NCBI GenBank assembly: GCA_900199505.1
Contig: FZQV01000005.1
Coordinates: forward strand, 1 to 64,000
Origin: Ruaniaceae bacterium KH17
GTDB taxonomy: Bacteria; Actinomycetota; Actinomycetes; Actinomycetales; Actinomycetaceae
DNA length: 64,000 bases
Reading direction: 5' to 3'
The stretch's first letter is position 1, and the number at the start of each line of letters is the position of its first letter. The notes under the pieces were generated by a model that saw only the letters and a program-made list of their open reading frames with translations, had not been told where the DNA came from and ran no database searches. A program made the translations under genes and the position numbers. Shown here piece after piece: positions 23,252 to 56,207 of this stretch.

Positions 23252-23893
23252 GTGAGTAGTGATCGTGAGATTCGGGTCATGATCGTTGACGACCACGAAA
23301 TCGTTCGCCGCGGCATCGCTGAGATTGTCGATCGCGCGGATGGGCTCGTTGTCGTCGCGGAGGCCGGAACTGTTGCCGAGGCGATTCGGCGCGCCGAACT
23401 GGTGCGTCCCGAGGTCGTGCTCGTGGACCTGCAACTGCCGGATGGCACCGGAATTGACATCATTTCCCAGCTCAAAGAGGTGCTCCCGAGCGCGCACCCG
23501 ATCGTGCTCACATCCTTCGACGACGACGAAGCCCTCACCCAGGCGCTGCACGCGGGTGCGAAGGCGTACCTGCTGAAGACCGTCCGCGGCGCCGAGATCA
23601 CCGATGTGGTGAAGGCCGTTGCCTCCGGCCGCACGCTCCTCGATGAACGCACCGTGACCCGCCGCCGCGCGGATCACGGCGACCCCACCGCGAACCTCAC
23701 GCCTTCCGAGCGCAAGGTGCTCGAGCTGATCGGCGACGGCATGTCTAACCGTGAGATCGGCGAGAAGCTCGGCGTGGCCGAGAAGACGGTCAAGAACCAC
23801 ATCACGTCGCTGCTCGCCAAGATGGGCCTGCAGCGCCGCACCCAGGCCGCCGCATGGGTGGCCGGCCAGCGCGCCAGCTCCTGGCGGCAGTAG
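23252..23893 (+). CDS. NarL/LuxR response regulator, DevR/DosR-like
   Basis: The 213-residue regulator has a receiver domain with acidic pocket DDHE, phospho-acceptor Asp59 (VVLVDLQLPDG) and conserved Lys near 109, then a LuxR-type helix-turn-helix (about 148-205). The recognition helix VAEKTVKNHI and the following LLAKMGLQRRTQAA are very close to mycobacterial DevR/DosR, which binds palindromes of type GGGACTwwAGTCCC. It ends exactly where the convergent kinase gene ends, and such a box-like palindrome lies upstream of cydA. The inferred role is response to low oxygen or redox stress. Confidence 0.85.
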   Translation: MSSDREIRVMIVDDHEIVRRGIAEIVDRADGLVVVAEAGTVAEAIRRAELVRPEVVLVDLQLPDGTGIDIISQLKEVLPSAHPIVLTSFDDDEALTQALHAGAKAYLLKTVRGAEITDVVKAVASGRTLLDERTVTRRRADHGDPTANLTPSERKVLELIGDGMSNREIGEKLGVAEKTVKNHITSLLAKMGLQRRTQAAAWVAGQRASSWRQ

Positions 23894-25543
23894 CTACGTC
23901 AGCGGGGCGGTCCATTTCATCAGGGTGCCGCGGCCGTTGGTGCCCGGCGTGAGCGAGAAGTCGCCGCCGTGGCGGCGGGCGCGCGCGGTGAGATTGCTGA
24001 GGCCGGAACTCCGCGTCACCTCTGGATCCACGCCGCGGCCATCATCCTCGACCTCCACGCTCACGCTCCCGGAGATGCCACGCCCGTCGAGGAGCACGCG
24101 CACCTGCACCGAGTTGCCCTTCGCGTGCCGCGCCGCGTTGGAGAGACCTTCGCGCACGACGGCAACCAGGTCGTCTGCGATGTCCGCATCCACCCGGGAT
24201 TCGACTTCGTCCACGAGCGGGTTCTCGCTGTCGTCATCCAAGATCGTGCCATCCACGGAGATGATGAGGGACGGGGCGTAGCCGAGGGCCGTCCGGCCGA
24301 TCGAGGTCTCGCGGCGTAGCCGCTCCACGAGCACCACGTCCTCGTCGTCCGTGCGTAACGACTGCACGATCGCGCGGATCTGACGCACCGATTCATCCAC
24401 CGAGGAGAGCGAGTTCTCCATCGCCTGCGCGAGTTCGTCCTCGCCCTTCTCGGCGAGTTGGTTGCGGGCGCTGTGGATCTGCATTCCGGTAGCGAAGAGT
24501 TGCTGGATTGCCAGATCGTGCAGGTCCCGCGCGATCCGCTGCCGTTCCTCGAACAGGTTGGCGACGTCGTCAGCGTGGCGGGCGGCCGCCAACTCGAGAG
24601 CGAGGGCGGCCTGCTGCGCGAGGCCCTCGGCCATCATGAGTTCGGAATCCTCAAACTCGGGGCGGCCCACGTCACGCATCACGACGATTACACCCAGGCC
24701 GTCACCATGCGCAAGCATCGGCGCATACATCGCGGCACCGAAGTGCCGCAGAATCGGGATCCGCATAGGAATCGCGCGTTGCAGTGAATGGACAATCACA
24801 CCCACACGTTCGCGGAGCACCGAAAGTGCGCGACCATTCGGTGGGAACTGGATACCCAGGAGTTGATCCGCAAGCACACCATCCACAATCTCGCAGGCCC
24901 AGGTATCGCCCACGGAGGGCAGCACGATGAGGCAGCAGTCGGCGTCCGCCACCGTGCGAACCCGCTGCGCGATCATCGTGAGGACTTCCTCCTCGTCGGC
25001 GCCCTCAAGGAGGGACGTGGTGATCTCCTGGCTCACCTCCATCCAGCGGGCGCGCGCCCGGGACTGCGCGTAGGCGCGGGCATTTGCAATGGCGATCGCG
25101 GCAGCCTTAGCAAGCTGCTGGACTTGGGTGACGTCCTGGTCAGTGAAACCACCAGGTTTGTCCGAGAGGTAGAGCCGACCAAACACCTGGTGCTGAACCC
25201 GGACCGGCACGCCGAGGAAGGAGCCCATCTTTGGGTGGCGCTTGGGGAAACCGGTGAACGCGGGGTGCGCGCTGAGATCGTCGAGCCGCAAGTACCCCTC
25301 AACCGGAATCTCGGCAAAAAGACCATCCCCGTGCGGAGAGAAGCCAAGCGCCTGCCGCAGTTCTTCGCTGATCCCGTGATACACGAAGAGCGATGTGTCC
25401 CCCGTGTTGTCGAGCACGGCGAGGGCGCCATAGCGGGCGCCCGTCAGCTCGGCCGCCAGATCCACGAAGTCCTGCAGGACCTCCGGCAGATCGAGCTGCC
25501 CGGTCAGCGTGAGGGAGGCGCTGAGGAGCCGATCGTCCGTCAT
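23894..25543 (-). CDS. Two-GAF histidine kinase, DevS/DosT-like
   Basis: The 549-residue protein has GAF-A (about 17-160), GAF-B (about 178-322), a HisKA_3 box EERQRIARDLHDLAIQQLFA with His342 as phospho-acceptor, and an ATPase domain with the G box DDGRGVDPE near the end. No membrane segment is seen, so it should be cytosolic. In DevS and DosT of mycobacteria GAF-A binds heme through His149/147; allowing for the shorter N-terminus here, His103 in KRHPKMGSFLGVPV is at the matching place. Heme sensing of O2, NO or CO is therefore plausible but unproved. The gene overlaps the end of cydC by four bases and is the last gene of the cyd operon. Confidence 0.85.
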   Translation of the reverse strand: MTDDRLLSASLTLTGQLDLPEVLQDFVDLAAELTGARYGALAVLDNTGDTSLFVYHGISEELRQALGFSPHGDGLFAEIPVEGYLRLDDLSAHPAFTGFPKRHPKMGSFLGVPVRVQHQVFGRLYLSDKPGGFTDQDVTQVQQLAKAAAIAIANARAYAQSRARARWMEVSQEITTSLLEGADEEEVLTMIAQRVRTVADADCCLIVLPSVGDTWACEIVDGVLADQLLGIQFPPNGRALSVLRERVGVIVHSLQRAIPMRIPILRHFGAAMYAPMLAHGDGLGVIVVMRDVGRPEFEDSELMMAEGLAQQAALALELAAARHADDVANLFEERQRIARDLHDLAIQQLFATGMQIHSARNQLAEKGEDELAQAMENSLSSVDESVRQIRAIVQSLRTDDEDVVLVERLRRETSIGRTALGYAPSLIISVDGTILDDDSENPLVDEVESRVDADIADDLVAVVREGLSNAARHAKGNSVQVRVLLDGRGISGSVSVEVEDDGRGVDPEVTRSSGLSNLTARARRHGGDFSLTPGTNGRGTLMKWTAPLT

Positions 25544-27270
25544 ACCGCCCCCGCGTAGCTGGTGTGCCGTTCCATGAGTTCATTATGTGTGCCGCGATCG
25601 AGCACGCGCGCCGGCGGGCCATCGCCGAGCCAGATCACCTCGTCCGCTGCGCTCAGCGCTCCCAGGTGGTGTGTGGCGATCACGATGCCGCGACCGGACT
25701 TCGTGAGGCCGAGTAGATCACGCAGCAGCGCCTGAGCCGTGGCCTCGTCGAGGTGCTCCGCAGGCTCGTCGATGAGCAGGATCGGCGCGGGGGAGGCGAG
25801 CGCGCGGGCAACGAGCAGACGGCGGCGCTCGCCACCCGAGATGGTGGTGGCATCCGAGCCCAGCACAGTCCCGAGGCCGTTCGGCAGGCTCGCGAGCCAG
25901 CCACCCAATCCGGCCAGATCTAGTAGTCCATGCGCCTCCTCAGCGGTGACGTCCCCGCGCGCAACCCGCAGATTCTCTAGCACCGTGGTGTGGAAGACAT
26001 GCGCGTCTTCGGCGGTCATCGTCACGAGTCGCGAGACCGAGGCACGCGTGGCCCGCGCGAGCTCGATCCCCGCCACTTGTACGGAACCCTCCTGCGCTGG
26101 AAGGAGCCCCGCAAGGGTCATCAGCAGTGTGGTCTTCCCGATGCCGCTCGGCCCCACCAGCGCAACCGCGCGGCCCGGTTCGATCGAGAGGTCGATGCCT
26201 GTGGCAACGACGCCGTGCCCGGGCCAGCCCACGCTCAGGCGTGATGCGTTGATGGCCGCGTGGACGCCGTCGGGCAGCTCCTCGTGACGCTCGTCCGCTG
26301 GCGCGTTCAGGATCTCGGTGACGCGCACTGCCGCGCCCGCAGAGCGCACCAGCTGCACGGCGGCCGCTGGGAGCATCGCCGTGCCCTCGAAGGCGGCAAG
26401 AGGGGTCAGCACCACCACGGCCAGTTCCACGGGATTGAGGGCCCCGCTCGCAAGGGCAGGGAGGCCGACGGCGATGGCCCCCACCACCGCTAGACCCATC
26501 CCCAGGAGATCCATCCCTGCGGCAACGGCGGTGGGCCGTGCGGAGCGATCCTGGAGGGTGGCAAGGTTGTCTTCCTGTGCGCGCAACGTGTCCCGAAGGG
26601 CGCTGTAGCGGCCATTGACGGTAAGTTCGGCGCCGGAGTCCACAAGCGTCATCGCGGTGGCCGCCAGATCGGCACGGGCTTCAGTGGCTGCGACCTCCGC
26701 CGCCCGGGCACCACGTGCCGCGAGCAACGGCCCGAGTGTCCCGGCCAGGAGCAGACATGCCGCCAACACGAGTCCGGACAGCGGATTGAGCCAGGTCACC
26801 AGGACAATGGTGCCCAGGCCCACGACGCCGGCCACTGCTGCCGGTAGCAGGGCGCGCACCACGAGATCACCCACCGAGTCGATGTCCGCCCCCGTGCGCG
26901 CGAGCAGGTCCCCACGCCGGAGGGATGCGACACGTTCGGTGGGGGACTCAGAGAGGCGCTCGTACACCGCAGTCCGCAGCGTGCTCATGCCGGCCAGGGC
27001 TACGTCATGGGAGGCGAGGCGCTCCAGGTAGCGCAGAACAGAGCGGGCGATACCGAAGGTACGCACACCGACGGCCGCCACAGAAAGCTCGAGCACTGGT
27101 GGCATCTGCGAGGCGCGTGCGATCAGCCATGCGGCGGTCGACGTGAGCGCCACGGAGGCGCCGAGGCCAAGCGACCCGAACAGGACCGCGAGAGCGACGC
27201 GGCCACGCCGTAGCTCCAGGAGCGTCCATGCGCGCCGGACCGCCGCCCATTCCTTCGAGGTGAGGATCAC
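25540..27270 (-). CDS. cydC: ABC transporter subunit CydC
   Basis: The 576-residue half-transporter has six hydrophobic segments (to about residue 310) and an ATPase domain with Walker A GPSGIGKTT, signature ISGGERRRLL and Walker B ILLIDEPAEHLD. With CydD it exports thiols or handles heme at the inner membrane and is required to assemble cytochrome bd. It overlaps cydD and the kinase gene by four bases on each side. Confidence 0.92.
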   Translation of the reverse strand: MILTSKEWAAVRRAWTLLELRRGRVALAVLFGSLGLGASVALTSTAAWLIARASQMPPVLELSVAAVGVRTFGIARSVLRYLERLASHDVALAGMSTLRTAVYERLSESPTERVASLRRGDLLARTGADIDSVGDLVVRALLPAAVAGVVGLGTIVLVTWLNPLSGLVLAACLLLAGTLGPLLAARGARAAEVAATEARADLAATAMTLVDSGAELTVNGRYSALRDTLRAQEDNLATLQDRSARPTAVAAGMDLLGMGLAVVGAIAVGLPALASGALNPVELAVVVLTPLAAFEGTAMLPAAAVQLVRSAGAAVRVTEILNAPADERHEELPDGVHAAINASRLSVGWPGHGVVATGIDLSIEPGRAVALVGPSGIGKTTLLMTLAGLLPAQEGSVQVAGIELARATRASVSRLVTMTAEDAHVFHTTVLENLRVARGDVTAEEAHGLLDLAGLGGWLASLPNGLGTVLGSDATTISGGERRRLLVARALASPAPILLIDEPAEHLDEATAQALLRDLLGLTKSGRGIVIATHHLGALSAADEVIWLGDGPPARVLDRGTHNELMERHTSYAGAV

Positions 27271-28913
27271 GGGGCCGCCTCCAGTGAACGCGCGGCAATC
27301 TCAATCACATGATCGGCGGCGGCGATCATCGCGGGCCGGTGGGCGATTACCACCACGGTGCTGCCGTTATCGACGAGGGAGCGTGCCGCCGCCACGATTA
27401 CCGATTCGCTGGCCGAATCGAGATGCGCGGTGGGCTCGTCCAGCACCACAAGGGGAGAGGGGGAGAACAGGGCACGCGTGAGCGCCAGGCGCTGCCGCTG
27501 ACCCACGGAGAGGCCAACGCCGCCGTGGCCGAGTGTGGTCTGCCACCCACAGGGGAGGGATTCGACGACGCCGAGGAAGTCGGCAGCGCGGGCAGCTACC
27601 AATAGCTCCTCGGTCACCTCAGTGGCGCCTACGTTCTCAAGAACTGTCCCGGGCACGATGGCGGGGCGCTGTGGGACCCAGGTGGTGTGCGAGTGGAAAC
27701 TCGTTGGATCAATTTCTGTGAGGTCCACGCCGTCGATCGTGACCGTGCCCTCGTCGGGCTGGAGCAGACCCAGGAGGAGCAGTGCGGTGGTGGATTTGCC
27801 GGAACCGGTGGGCCCCACCAGCACAGAGAGTTCCCCGGGCGGAATCGATGCGCTGAGGTTGGAGGGAGCCTCTATTCCGCGGCCCTCTGGACGCACGGAG
27901 ACGCCGTCGAACACGATCATTGAGGAGACCAGTGATGGGGCTTCTTGTGTACCGGGCGCGGGGAGTGGACGCTCGAGAATCTCGAAGGCCGCGTTAGCCG
28001 CAGCGATGCCGTTGGTGGAGGCGTGGAAGTGCGTTCCCACCTGACGTAGCGGCATCAACACCTCGGGTGCGAGCATGATCGCGGCAAGTGCCGTTACCAG
28101 GTCCACGCCACCGAATACCAGCCGCATTCCCACCGTGACCGCCACGAGGGCGACAGAGAGTGAGGCGATGAACTCGAGGATCGCGCCGGAGAGGAATGCC
28201 ACACGCAGGGTCTGCATCGTGGTGGCGGCATAGGCATCTGAAAGCTCCTTCACACGCGCCCCGGGGCCCCTCTCGCGGCCCAATGCTTTCAGTGTGGCAA
28301 GTCCCGCGAGGAGATCAAGCAACTGCGCGCCAAGCCGGTCCATTTGGGCGAGTCTGGTCTCCGAGTAGCTGGCTGTGAGCGTACCCACAAGCCACATGAA
28401 CACGGGGATCATGGGTATCGCGGCCAGAATCAGGTAGCCCGAGGTGTGGTCCTGGAGCCAGAGAACGAGGAGAGTACACGGCGTGAGGACCGCCGCAAGC
28501 ACGAGTTGGGGGAGGTAGCGCACAAAGTACGGCGCGAGATCATCGAGGCCGCGGGTTGCGAGCGTCACTGCCTCGGCGGATTGCCCCGCCGTCACGCCAC
28601 GCGGACCCTCGGCCACCGTGTGATCGATGATCTGGCCGCGCAGATCGGCCACGGCCTTCGTAGCGGCGCGGTGTGCCAGCGCTTCCTGTACGACGACGAC
28701 CAGCACCCGCAGCGCGAGCACCCCCACCAGGGCGGGAATCAGCCAGGGTGGCCCCGCCGGTGTACCCGTGACCGCCGGGCCAACGATGTGGGCGATCAGC
28801 AACACCTGCGCCAAGATCAGCGCCGTGGTGAGTACGCCCGTGACCACGGTGGTGCCCATGTAGGCCGCCGCGCCACGCGCGTACTTCAGTAGGCGAGGAT
28901 CGAGCGGCTTCAC
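27267..28913 (-). CDS. cydD: ABC transporter subunit CydD
   Basis: The 548-residue half-transporter has a membrane domain (to about 300) and an ATPase domain with Walker A GPTGSGKST, signature LSVGQRQRLAL and Walker B LVVLDEPTAHLD. It partners CydC. The separate cydD and cydC genes follow cydB with 25 bases between; in some actinobacteria the two are fused. Confidence 0.92.
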   Translation of the reverse strand: MKPLDPRLLKYARGAAAYMGTTVVTGVLTTALILAQVLLIAHIVGPAVTGTPAGPPWLIPALVGVLALRVLVVVVQEALAHRAATKAVADLRGQIIDHTVAEGPRGVTAGQSAEAVTLATRGLDDLAPYFVRYLPQLVLAAVLTPCTLLVLWLQDHTSGYLILAAIPMIPVFMWLVGTLTASYSETRLAQMDRLGAQLLDLLAGLATLKALGRERGPGARVKELSDAYAATTMQTLRVAFLSGAILEFIASLSVALVAVTVGMRLVFGGVDLVTALAAIMLAPEVLMPLRQVGTHFHASTNGIAAANAAFEILERPLPAPGTQEAPSLVSSMIVFDGVSVRPEGRGIEAPSNLSASIPPGELSVLVGPTGSGKSTTALLLLGLLQPDEGTVTIDGVDLTEIDPTSFHSHTTWVPQRPAIVPGTVLENVGATEVTEELLVAARAADFLGVVESLPCGWQTTLGHGGVGLSVGQRQRLALTRALFSPSPLVVLDEPTAHLDSASESVIVAAARSLVDNGSTVVVIAHRPAMIAAADHVIEIAARSLEAAP

Positions 28914-28938
28914 AGAATCAATCTATCGTGAGCCGTCG

Positions 28939-30042
28939 CTAGTGCTTCGTCGACTCCGCCAGGGGGAGGCCTGCGGGCTCGTTCGAGATCTGCTTCGTTG
29001 AGATGCGCTTGCGGAACACCCAGTACGTCCATCCCTGGTAGATCAGAACCACGGGCACCAGACCCAGCGCCACAAAGCTCATCACCTTCAGCGTGTATGG
29101 CGTGGAACTCGCCTGTGCGATCGTGAGCGAATAGGCGTCGTCGATCGAAGACTTCATGACGCTCGGGAACATCGAGATGAAAATCCACGCCACGGCCGCC
29201 ACCATCGTGACCACATATGAGAGGAACGCCCAACCTTCGCGGCGCTTCGATGTCGCGACGACGGTCCCCACAAGTGCGAGGGCGGCAATCACCAGCGGGA
29301 TCCAGCCAACAGCATTCGCCGAGTAGGCGAGCTGGCCCCAGACAACGAAGATGGCGGCGAGGACGGTGGCGATCATCGAGAACTGTGCGGCGAGATCTCC
29401 GGCGCGTCTTTGGATGTCGCCTTCGGTCTTCAGCGCGAGGAAGATGGCACCACCCATCAGGCACAGCGATGCGGTGACAAGCCCACCGAGCAGCGTGTAG
29501 GGCGTGATCAGCGAGAAGAACCCGCCGGTCAGCTGGTGGGAGGAGGTCGCCAAGGAGGATGCAACGGCGTCGGGAGCCACCACGGCGCCCGTGGCGCGAT
29601 CGAGCACTTCGATCTTCATGCCCTGCACGAGGTTCGCGAAGGCGACACCCCACAGCACCGCGGGAGTCCAGGCGGAGATCGTGTGCGCCACATCCCAGCG
29701 GCGACGCCACTTCTCATCGCGGATCTTCGGCCGCCACTCGATCGCGCAGATGCGCACGATCAGGGCGAGCAGGATCACGAAGAGGGCGAGATAGGCCCCC
29801 GAGAACAGCGTGGCGTACCACTCCGGGAAGGCGGCGAACATGGCGCCACCCGCGGTGAGGAGCCACACCTCGTTGCCATCCCAGTGTGGGCCGATGCTGT
29901 TGAGCGTCACACGACGCTCCCGCTCATTCTTCGGCAGCCACTTTAGGAGCATCCCGACGCCGAAGTCGAAGCCTTCGAGGGTGAGGTAGCCGATCCAGAG
30001 GACGGCGATGAGCACGAACCAGAGAACTGATAGCCATTCCAT
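28939..30042 (-). CDS. cydB: Cytochrome bd ubiquinol/menaquinol oxidase subunit II
   Basis: The 367-residue membrane subunit starts MEWLSVLWFVLIAVLWIGYLTLEGFDFGVGML, typical of CydB, and has GPHWDGNEVWL after the first segment. It pairs with CydA to form the high-affinity terminal oxidase used at low oxygen. Nine bases separate it from cydA. Confidence 0.96.
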   Translation of the reverse strand: MEWLSVLWFVLIAVLWIGYLTLEGFDFGVGMLLKWLPKNERERRVTLNSIGPHWDGNEVWLLTAGGAMFAAFPEWYATLFSGAYLALFVILLALIVRICAIEWRPKIRDEKWRRRWDVAHTISAWTPAVLWGVAFANLVQGMKIEVLDRATGAVVAPDAVASSLATSSHQLTGGFFSLITPYTLLGGLVTASLCLMGGAIFLALKTEGDIQRRAGDLAAQFSMIATVLAAIFVVWGQLAYSANAVGWIPLVIAALALVGTVVATSKRREGWAFLSYVVTMVAAVAWIFISMFPSVMKSSIDDAYSLTIAQASSTPYTLKVMSFVALGLVPVVLIYQGWTYWVFRKRISTKQISNEPAGLPLAESTKH

Positions 30043-30051
30043 GAGGGGTTC

Positions 30052-31524
30052 CTAGTAGACGAAGGACATCGGGACGTCGGAGCCATCGGGCGCTTCGGGG
30101 ATCTTGTCGGCAATCGAGTCGACGCCTTCGCGCACGTAACGGCGCATCAGGAAGAACCAGACCACGCCGAGTGCTGCATAGAGCAACGTGAACACGATCA
30201 TCGAGAACAACACGGTGCCGCCTCCCACCACGGTGGAGACGCCGTCCTGTGTGAGCATGTAGATCATGTCCACCGGGTTGTCCGGGTTCGGGTGCACCAC
30301 CCACGGCTGGCGACCCATCTCGGTGAAGATCCAACCGAACGTGTTCGCGGCAAACGGCGCACCGATCGCCCAGATCGCTGCGGTGCCGAGCCATTTCTTG
30401 TCCGAAACATTGCCCTTGCGGAAATACCACAGGATGCCGACGGCGAGCAGCGCCGAGAAAGCGGCGAAGCCGATCATCAGGCGGAAGGACCAGTAAGTGA
30501 CGAACAGGTTTGGGACATAGTTGACGTCATCGCCGAACTGATCCGCATAGAGCACCTCGTGCTCCTCGCGAATCTCCGTGATGCCCTTCAGCGGGGCGTT
30601 GAAGTCTCCGCTCGCAAGGAAGGACGTGACGCCTGGGACCGAGAGAATCCTCGTCACGTTCTCACAATCATTGGAGAAGTCGCCGATCGAGAGAAGGGAA
30701 AAGGCCGCGCCGTCAGGCTCGGACTCGCACATTCCCTCGGCAGCCGCCATCTTCATGGGCTGCTGCTCGAACATGAGCTTCGCCTGGAAGTCGCCGGTGA
30801 CGGCCACGCCGAGCCCGGAGATGATGATCACGATGAGGCCGAACTGAGCGGCGGGGCGCCACACGTTCCGGGCCTCTTCGTCATTGCCGGCGCGCACGGC
30901 CCGCACTACCCACCACACGGCGATGCCGGCAATGAATGTGCCTGCCGTCAGGAATGCTGCCGTGATGACGTGCGCAAACGCATTAACTGCCGTGTTGTTG
31001 GTGATCAGCGCGGCAAAGTTGACGAGTTCGGCACGTCCGGTCTCGGGGTTGTATTCGGCGCCCACCGGGTGCTGCATGAAGGAGTTGGCAACGAGGATCC
31101 AGTAGGCCGAGAGGTTCACGCCAATCGCCACGCACCAGATCGAGGCGAGGTGGATGCCTTTCGGCAGGCGGTTCCAGCCGAAGATCCACAGGCCCAGGAA
31201 TGTGGACTCGAGGAAGAACGCGGCAAGCGCCTCGATCGCGAGTGGCGCGCCGAACACATCGCCCACGAAGCGGGAGTACTCAGACCAGTTCATCCCGAAC
31301 TGGAACTCCTGCACGATTCCGGTGGCCACACCCAATGCGAAGTTGATGATCAGCAGCTTGCCGAAGAACTTCGTGAGCTTGAGCCAATGCTCCTTGCCCG
31401 TCTTCAGCCAGATCGTCTGCATGATCGCGACCAGGGGAGTAAGCCCGATCGTGAGTGGAACCAATATGAAGTGGTAGACGGTCGTGATACCGAACTGCCA
31501 CCGTGCAAGGTCAAGAGCTTCCAC
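30052..31524 (-). CDS. cydA: Cytochrome bd oxidase subunit I
   Basis: The 490-residue subunit carries hemes b558, b595 and d. ARWQFGITTVYHFILVPLTIG holds the N-terminal heme ligand His18, followed by FQFGMNWSEYSRFVGDVFGAPLAIEALAAFFLES. I place the start at the GTG at 31524, which has GGAAGG upstream and gives the usual N-terminus VEALDLARWQFG; the frame is open to 31587. First gene of cydABDC-kinase. A DevR-box-like palindrome lies about 73 bases upstream. Confidence 0.95.
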   Translation of the reverse strand: MEALDLARWQFGITTVYHFILVPLTIGLTPLVAIMQTIWLKTGKEHWLKLTKFFGKLLIINFALGVATGIVQEFQFGMNWSEYSRFVGDVFGAPLAIEALAAFFLESTFLGLWIFGWNRLPKGIHLASIWCVAIGVNLSAYWILVANSFMQHPVGAEYNPETGRAELVNFAALITNNTAVNAFAHVITAAFLTAGTFIAGIAVWWVVRAVRAGNDEEARNVWRPAAQFGLIVIIISGLGVAVTGDFQAKLMFEQQPMKMAAAEGMCESEPDGAAFSLLSIGDFSNDCENVTRILSVPGVTSFLASGDFNAPLKGITEIREEHEVLYADQFGDDVNYVPNLFVTYWSFRLMIGFAAFSALLAVGILWYFRKGNVSDKKWLGTAAIWAIGAPFAANTFGWIFTEMGRQPWVVHPNPDNPVDMIYMLTQDGVSTVVGGGTVLFSMIVFTLLYAALGVVWFFLMRRYVREGVDSIADKIPEAPDGSDVPMSFVY

Positions 31525-31590
31525 GGCCTCGCCTTCCGAGTAGTCAGGGGACTGGTGCGGCCATCCTATGGCGCTCGTCACCTCCATCCC

Positions 31591-31604
31591 AGGACGTTAG
31601 TCCC
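31591..31604 (-). promoter_or_regulatory. DevR/DosR-box-like palindrome upstream of cydA
   Basis: On the coding (minus) strand the 14 bases read GGGACTAACGTCCT, matching the DevR core consensus GGGACTwwAGTCCC at 12 of 14 positions. It lies between the cydA start and the divergent rne leader. Binding is inferred from the DevR-like regulator at the far end of the operon. Confidence 0.55.
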
Positions 31605-54854: not shown

Positions 54855-55261
54855 GCTGTGGCCTCCTTTTTTGGGGTGGGGGAGGAGAAGGTGGCGGCCG
54901 AGACGGCCGCAGAGAGTTCATCGCCTGCCTTCAGTGGGGCGCCAGCGAAGGCTCCCTCATGGGCGAGGACGGGCCGGCGATCGCCGGCCAGCTCGGGGTA
55001 CTTCTCTTCCAAGCGTTCCCGGTTCACCATGGTGCGATGCCAGTGGCGGACCGTCTCCGGATCACCGCCACGGATTCCGCGCCAGCTGTTGGGCATGTCA
55101 TCGCGAGATGATCCGGCGCTCGCGCGGCCTCCGATGTTCAGGCGGCTGGGCGTGCGGCGCGTCGCCGCGCCGCAGGTGCACGCCGGATTCTCAGCATTCA
55201 TGGACCGAAGAGCCGCTTCGAAGCGGTGGCCTTCGGTGCAGGCAAAGTCGTAGAGGATCAT
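54851..55261 (-). CDS. FmdB-type zinc-ribbon protein
   Basis: The 136-residue protein begins [16 protein letters not shown] and has NPACTCGAATRR, the FmdB/DUF1178-like pattern of a small zinc ribbon. The rest is hydrophilic and contains HWHRTMVNRERLEEKYPELAG. A FmdB-type gene within a formamidase operon gave the family its name; the role, regulatory or in metal supply, is unknown. Its start overlaps the lactonase stop and its end overlaps the ADH start. Confidence 0.7.
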   Translation of the reverse strand: MILYDFACTEGHRFEAALRSMNAENPACTCGAATRRTPSRLNIGGRASAGSSRDDMPNSWRGIRGGDPETVRHWHRTMVNRERLEEKYPELAGDRRPVLAHEGAFAGAPLKAGDELSAAVSAATFSSPTPKKEATA

Positions 55262-56073
55262 CAGGCGTAGAACCCGTTCGGGGCGAGGGTGAGGCCCTTG
55301 CGCTGCTCGGAGTCGTGACCGAAGATCATTTCCGCGCCGGTCGCCTGCTGAATCGCACGAAGCTTCTCAACGGACTCGAGCCAGCCAACGGAGTCCCACA
55401 CGATGCCGGCCCCGATCGCGGGCGGACCGTAGCTGGCACTGAGGTAGACGGCGTCGGAGGTGAAGATCTTGGTCCCGGACTCGGGGAGATCGACTCGCAG
55501 ACTCATGGTGCCCCAGGTGTGGCCCGGAGTGGAGATCACGGACACGCCCGGCACGATCTCCTGATCGCCGTGGACCGCTTCGATATTGAGGCCGGCGAAG
55601 TCCGAGACGATGTGGGCGCCCTTTGAGTAGCCCTCGATCGTCTTCACGCCCTCGATTTCATCGGACTGGGCGAGGATCCGGGTGCGGCCGTTGTCGAACA
55701 TCTTGGCGTTGGCGGCGTGATCGAAGTGGAGGTGGCTGAGCACGAGGATGTCGATGTCATCCGTGGTGAGCTCAAGATCGGCGAGGGCCGTGTCCAGGTA
55801 TCCGGGGCCCGCCGGGTCCTCTTGGACGGGGAAGAAGTCGTGGAAGCCGGTGGGGGCCCAGCGCTGCTCCCAATCGCGTGGAACGCCGGTATCCCACAAG
55901 ATCTTTGCGTCAGGTGTCTCGACGAGCACCGCATGGGTGGGGCACTCGCCCCAGGCGGCCGGCTTGTCCTTGTGGTGCCGATCGGTGATGGTGTTTCCGG
56001 CTTGGAGAAGCAACCAGGTGTGGTCACACTCCATAACGCCGGTGGACAGGATGTGGAGCTTCATGTCTGACAT
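55261..56073 (-). CDS. MBL-fold lactonase (AttM/AiiA-like)
   Basis: The 270-residue metallo-beta-lactamase-fold enzyme has [13 protein letters not shown] (HxHxDH, about 111-116), [12 protein letters not shown] and [12 protein letters not shown] with the third metal ligand, and a distal GHDSEQ histidine. The layout matches N-acyl homoserine lactonases such as AttM/BlcC. With the downstream ADH and SSADH, gamma-butyrolactone-type lactones are the most likely substrate; AHL cleavage may be secondary. ATG 56073 has AAAGGG upstream. First gene of the operon. Confidence 0.85.
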
Positions 56074-56207
56074 GACGGGCCCTTTCTTCGTCGGAAGGCT
56101 GTCCTCCCAACTTAGGATCGGGACCAATGTCCTATCAATATCAATGCGCGCCATAGGCTGGGCTACTGGGTGGCATATAGTTACATATCGCGATGGAGGT
56201 GGTACGT

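Follow-up and report, generated by a model that had tools for sequence, protein, structure and literature searches.

A DevSR-type two-component system in Ruaniaceae bacterium KH17 probably serves as an Arc-like reciprocal oxidase switch, whereby low oxygen would activate the cytochrome bd oxidase and repress the aa3 oxidase. The window analysed, a stretch of 64,000 nucleotides from contig FZQV01000005.1, contains the bd operon together with the putative sensor and regulator. The parts of the system, their homology, the conserved boxes and the positions of these boxes relative to -10-like hexamers can be read directly from the DNA; oxygen as the signal, the pairing of kinase and regulator, binding of the boxes and the direction of control are inferred.

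The cyd genes lie on the minus strand in the order cydA (30052-31524; Pfam), cydB (28939-30042; Pfam and NCBIfam), cydD (27267-28913; TIGR02857, 541.8 bits, above cut-off) and cydC (25540-27270; TIGR02868, 566 bits, above cut-off), and the last gene of the operon encodes a DevS/DosT-type histidine kinase of 549 residues (23894-25543, minus strand). There are 4-base overlaps between the kinase gene and cydC and between cydC and cydD, and the block is flanked by rnc and rne (Pfam, NCBIfam). The original prediction described cydA-B-D-C and a two-GAF kinase as one minus-strand unit; this holds at every coordinate, and Pfam and NCBIfam confirm the families. The convergent arrangement with a DevR/NarL-type response regulator of 213 residues (23252-23893, plus strand) holds as well, the last base of the regulator gene, 23893, directly adjoining the end of the kinase gene at 23894. 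The ATG at 31587, the cydA start in the open reading frame list, is probably too early and not the true start, because in most relatives homology sets in at about the 20th to 22nd codon, which is GTG 31524 in the window, and because a -10-like TAGGAT (31568-31563, minus strand) lies between both starts. With the proposed start at GTG 31524, the DevR-like box upstream of cydA lies about 67-80 bases from the likely start and not 4.

The kinase has two GAF domains followed by HisKA_3 and HATPase (Pfam). No receiver domain was found in it with Pfam, unlike the hybrid kinase of the Arc system. GAF-A is homologous to the corresponding heme-binding domains of DevS and DosT, whose structures are solved (best E 1e-33, to 2y79 of DevS), and this sequence homology settles the fold. 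His103 had been put forward as the heme ligand, and on alignment with DevS and DosT it does fall on the heme-ligand position, DevS His149. Tyr125 aligns with DevS Tyr171, and Ala42 with DevS Glu87 and DosT Gly85. In the available part of PMC4082495, His149 of DevS is the proximal and Tyr171 the distal residue, DosT has Gly85, and the E87A and E87G forms of DevS are reported as stable oxy complexes, a point disputed in part. At position 42, each of the 25 heme-keeping kinases in the sample has a small residue: Gly in 10, Ala in seven, Ser in seven and Thr in one. The kinase is thus a predicted heme sensor, presumably of oxygen. The ferrous, oxygen-free forms of DevS and DosT are the active ones (PMC5069765 and PMC4082495, partial texts), and because homology to these proteins gives the direction, low oxygen would correspond to the active kinase. 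An identity as MadRS was rejected; the NCBIfam scores are below the curated cut-offs (158.5 of 300 bits for the regulator, 57.2 of 500 for the kinase).

The regulator is composed of a receiver, with Asp59 placed by motif alignment, and a LuxR/NarL-type helix-turn-helix, and it matches DevR (3c3w) at E 2e-50. From residue 176 it carries AEKTVKN, the recognition helix of DevR, which 34 of the 36 family regulators share; one of the remaining two has SEKTVKN, and the other went unread, as the search pattern matched elsewhere. The KH17 genome holds nine further response-regulator matches. AEKTVKN is absent from all six of these with an aligned DNA-binding region, the other three being unaligned there. 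The convergent regulator would be the partner of the kinase and would bind the boxes upstream of the oxidase genes.

The consensus site of DevR is GGGAC...GTCCC. The site upstream of cydA, GGGACTAACGTCCT (31604-31591, minus strand), agrees with the DevR core at 12 of 14 positions, as first claimed. Is this more than a chance resemblance? The 300 bp upstream of cydA were examined at 38 loci of the family, one of them that of the window, whose own site has one mismatch. A perfect GGGAC-N4-GTCCC is present at 12 of these loci, against 0.04 expected from dinucleotide shuffles, and 18 have a site with no more than one mismatch, against 0.79 expected; the cydA box exceeds chance. Of 34 cydA loci from aa3 genera, all except that of G012 have a strict box, defined as RGGAC-N4-GTCCY, before the gene (33 of 34). 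These loci represent 32 genomes with ctaC and the kinase, the kinase-less G012, and G112, a 57% complete genome from a genus with aa3 in which ctaC was not found; G125 was left out. The sequence TANNNT is found 22-24 bp downstream of the strict box in 32 of the 33, where 0.24 would be expected for a window of three positions, and in KH17 the TAGGAT lies 22 bases downstream of the box. With transcription starts placed from TANNNT only, this spacing puts the box centre near -41.5 to -43.5 (about -41.5 in the window), an activator position overlapping the -35 region. The middle four bases of the box vary, as do the spacers; position and half-sites are kept. Outside the family, the strict box is present in seven of 60 cydA upstream regions (0.14 expected), and at five of these seven loci the fetched stretch contains neither a kinase nor a regulator match. 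The box therefore predates the operon arrangement or extends beyond it.

In KH17 a box is also situated before ctaC-ctaD of the aa3 oxidase. The ctaC gene itself is confined to 34 of the 151 family genomes and 11 of 36 genera. The promoters examined number 33, of which 30 came from the family ctaC search and three were added; G098, with a partial ctaC, was left out. All but two, those of G034 and the kinase-less G012, have a strict box (31/33), and in all 31 a TANNNT ends 6-12 nt upstream of it. Shuffles were applied to 29 of the 30 promoters, L245 being without an anchor: GGGACN4GTCCC with at most one mismatch is present in 22 of the 29 (1.30 expected) and in perfect form in seven (0.09 expected). 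Since TANNNT is just 5' of the ctaC box, the box would sit over the presumed transcription start, a repressor place. The two positions thus predict opposite signs of control at cydA and ctaC, activation at the one and repression at the other. G012, which has aa3 and no kinase, lacks the strict box at both oxidases, a single case. G034, where kinase, regulator and cydA box are present and the ctaC box is absent, counts against the switch.

How far does the box extend beyond the oxidases? There are nine perfect GGGACN4GTCCC sites in the KH17 genome, seven of them intergenic by the open reading frame call, and the intergenic ones include positions before ctaC-ctaD, nrdD and a BadF-type ATPase gene. 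The module was originally thought to be self-contained, but the same box precedes ctaC and nrdD, and in relatives also arcA, hsp20-like and narK-like genes; with boxes at ctaC, nrdD and other promoters, the set looks like a regulon. Genome-wide counts alone were dropped as evidence for the box: RGGACN4GTCCY occurs 12 times in KH17 versus 11 for reversed controls, GGGACN4GTCCC nine times versus two, and the form with at most one mismatch 99 times versus 66. As the strict pattern is not above control there, the case in this genome rests on place and conservation. Ten of the 12 strict sites are intergenic, compared with five of 11 reversed-pattern controls, a weak difference between few sites. 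Five heme-keeping relatives together have 52 perfect boxes versus 17 reversed controls. Of the relatives' sites, with one from G040 added, 41 of 53 are intergenic, a proportion that has no control set (57 rows held four repeats, L170 and L191). The genes nrdD, arcA, ctaC, narK-like and hsp20-like lie beside some of these sites; the hsp20-like gene, from one relative, and the narK-like gene, from another, both score below curated cut-offs, and lpd was assigned by eye. In 12 genomes from heme-loss genera, boxes are about as frequent as controls, 43 versus 33, or 22 versus 30 without G037.

The DevR regulon is one of dormancy genes, such as hspX, usp and nitrate genes (in part PMC5069765, partial text). 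No dormancy-type gene of these kinds was recognised beside the 12 strict sites of KH17. The window holds a second strict box, GGGACCAATGTCCT (56120-56133, plus strand), between the divergent genes of an MBL-fold protein (55261-56064, minus strand) and a GAF-domain protein (from 56193, plus strand), and this site is a candidate member of the regulon. In four nrdD promoters (L139, L195, L167 and L171), two NrdR-box-like repeats were seen by eye between the box and nrdD, which suggests joint control of nrdD by NrdR and the DevR-like regulator. A NarK-like transporter gene in G034 (L209, contig C49) is preceded by two perfect boxes that are 23 bases apart, start to start.

The linkage of the kinase to cyd is widespread. 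A kinase match is present in 148 of the 151 family genomes (E up to 1e-40) and a cydA match in 150 (E up to 1e-20). Kinase matches served to select forty loci, which represent 33 genera in addition to that of the window, and in 39 of these the neighbouring matched gene is cydC on the same strand. L037 is counted as adjacent although its cydC is matched in the first part only; at L038, the one exception, cyd is elsewhere on the chromosome. In 33 of the 40 a convergent regulator lies no more than 1 kb from the kinase, and in the other seven none is present within this distance. In family f7, which we take to be Streptomycetaceae, 19 genomes have a cydA match, and by coordinates a kinase match follows shortly downstream in at least nine of them, a lower bound as few candidates were scored; three of these loci were read (L106, L107 and L109), and cyd-linked kinases with the histidine occur in f7. 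DevS-like kinases or regulators are found near cyd in a few further families (L079, L081, L089, L090, L098). The survey of cyd-devS adjacency therefore shows a linkage that is not unique to this genome but family-wide, and that is shared with other actinobacterial families.

At L070 (G006, contig C76), cydC is followed by two tandem DevS-like kinase matches. At L081, in family f70, a DevS-like kinase and a regulator adjoin cydA, which has an upstream strict box with a TANNNT at 23 bp, i.e. the same activator spacing in a distant family. The cydA on the main contig of G007 (L037, contig C1) looks broken, its match holding two TGA codons, and another copy with the same upstream box is found on a small contig (L294, contig C4); this is possibly a matter of assembly.

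Absence of the aa3 oxidase goes together with changes in both box and sensor. In aa3 genera with the kinase, all 33 loci have a strict box no more than 150 bp from cydA; of 30 loci from aa3-less genomes none does, and eight of these 30 have one at a greater distance, up to 300 bp. Not counted among the 30 are the duplicates L163, L188, L200, L212 and L294 as well as L291 (G012), L293 (G029) and L295 (G063); the last two have no strict cydA box either. Among 41 sampled family kinases, His103 is kept in 25, lost in 14 and ambiguous in two (L068 and L069), where L066 is scored as lost despite an H in a gapped stretch and 29 further kinases (L002-L030, all with His103) are uncounted, their genera being already among the 41. 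By genus, the histidine is kept in 10 of 10 aa3 genera with a sampled kinase versus 11 of 23 aa3-less genera (Fisher p 0.005); the test counts two mixed genera as lost, omits the ambiguous g17 and ignores kinship, for which the tree is the better guide. In a quick CydABD tree, which excludes loci without a cydA start, a minimum of three changes is needed for the presence of aa3 and of seven for the heme-ligand state.

Three genomes, G012, G029 and G063, have no kinase match, and the strict cydA box is absent in all three. Only G012 is telling, because G029 and G063 are without aa3 and a near box is not expected in them. In G029 the kinase and regulator genes are both missing from an rnc-cyd-rne block that is otherwise retained. 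Since 14 of the 41 kinases no longer have the histidine, heme is ruled out as a universal input. The original idea of an operon that senses its own supply of oxygen fails as a general rule, as many bd-only relatives keep the operon and kinase with the heme histidine lost; because the kinase is kept in such relatives, often without this histidine, the system must have some other use there. The evidence could tip either way on a broader proposal, namely that the DevS/DosT-type sensor is the family's dedicated oxidase chooser, with its own gene in the operon that it activates and with opposite signs set by a box at -42 for bd and at +1 for aa3, and that after loss of aa3 the near box is lost and the heme site decays, repeatedly.

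The proposed switch would work as follows. Oxygen on the heme of GAF-A would hold the kinase off. When oxygen falls, the kinase would phosphorylate the regulator, which would then bind RGGAC-N4-GTCCY boxes. At cydA, where the box near -42 overlaps the -35 region, polymerase would be recruited and cydABDC raised together with the kinase, a positive feedback; at ctaC, where the box covers the transcription start, the regulator would block the aa3 oxidase. The same signal would reach nrdD and other anaerobic genes.

Might the same wiring serve another signal, e.g. NO, CO or heme redox, such that the switch protects respiration because aa3 is harmed more than bd? DosS and DosT sense NO and CO (PMC9062744, partial text), a case has been made for DosS as a redox sensor (PMC4082495, in the part available), and the cytochrome bd of Mycobacterium smegmatis is both induced by CO and resistant to it (PMC8125079, partial text). 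The small residue 42 of every heme-keeping kinase, however, parallels the Gly of DosT and the oxy complexes of DevS E87A and E87G, and nrdD and arcA as box neighbours point to a lack of oxygen, and another signal appears unlikely. That the box has a different reader, either a NarL-type protein or an unlinked DevR, and that the cyd-linked pair has a different job, is quite improbable: the DevR helix is found only on the linked regulator among those read, the box is DevR-like, and the kinase-less aa3 genome G012 is without strict boxes at both oxidases. The nine further response-regulator matches of KH17 speak for such a reader, as do the outside-family cydA regions with a strict box, seven of 60, five of them at loci where the fetched stretch has neither a kinase nor a regulator match. 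A loop closed within the operon, sensing nothing but the operon's own oxygen supply, would account for a kinase inside the operon and a box at cydA; since boxes are also conserved before ctaC, nrdD and further genes, it has very little probability.

If the reciprocal switch by a DevSR-type system is correct, it would represent an actinobacterial Arc-like switch in which a direct heme gas sensor replaces the quinone sensor, and the DevSR family, so far associated with dormancy, would have a very different role. The many relatives that have the operon and have lost the heme histidine, aa3 or the kinase are natural experiments, by which the logic can be tested by comparison.

Among the titles and abstract openings listed, at most 20 per search and with most subscription journals outside this scope, there was no description of a DevS-type kinase as the last gene of cydABDC and, within the same scope, none of a DevR-type switch with opposite signs at two oxidases. 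ArcBA acts with opposite signs on bd and heme-copper oxidases, ArcB being a hybrid kinase and ArcA an OmpR-type regulator. The likeness to the present system is one of logic only, with one anaerobic regulator and both oxidases, and homology is not claimed. The ArcBA regulon of Escherichia coli covers cydAB and cyoA-E, and ArcB senses the quinone pool (PMC4601167, partial text). With DevSR/DosSTR of Mycobacterium tuberculosis and M. smegmatis, the system shares a two-GAF heme kinase with a proximal histidine, the same recognition helix and a similar box; it is unlike them in that the kinase gene is in the cyd operon and boxes precede both cydA and ctaC. DevR is reported to be dispensable for cydA induction in M. 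smegmatis, where cydAB is outside the DevR regulon (PMC7739888, partial text), and this counts against the proposed switch. HrrSA of Corynebacterium glutamicum binds upstream of ctaC and cydABDC; it is heme-responsive, activates both branches and favours aa3 via repression of sigC (PMC7337898, partial text). In contrast to HrrSA, the box positions found here predict opposite signs at the two oxidases.

Streptomyces coelicolor OsdKR and SCO3948 resemble the present system in offering a DevSR-type system and a palindromic box, and cyd-linked kinases with the heme histidine occur in f7. SCO3948 presumably adjoins cydAB-CD. It is listed as an orphan kinase (PMC9739842, partial text), and OsdKR is described as DevSR-type with a palindromic box (PMC5069765, in the part available). 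The three f7 loci read differ from the window's family, as they have a Rex-like site and neither an adjacent regulator nor a strict cydA box. Rex controls cyd in Streptomyces avermitilis (PMC5355995, partial text). The Rex-like sequence, TGTGA-N6-TCACA, replaces the DevR-like box upstream of cydA in f7 (L106-L110, L112 and L113) and occurs there with or without a linked kinase; at L088, in family f4, a Rex-like site is found together with a strict box upstream of cydA.
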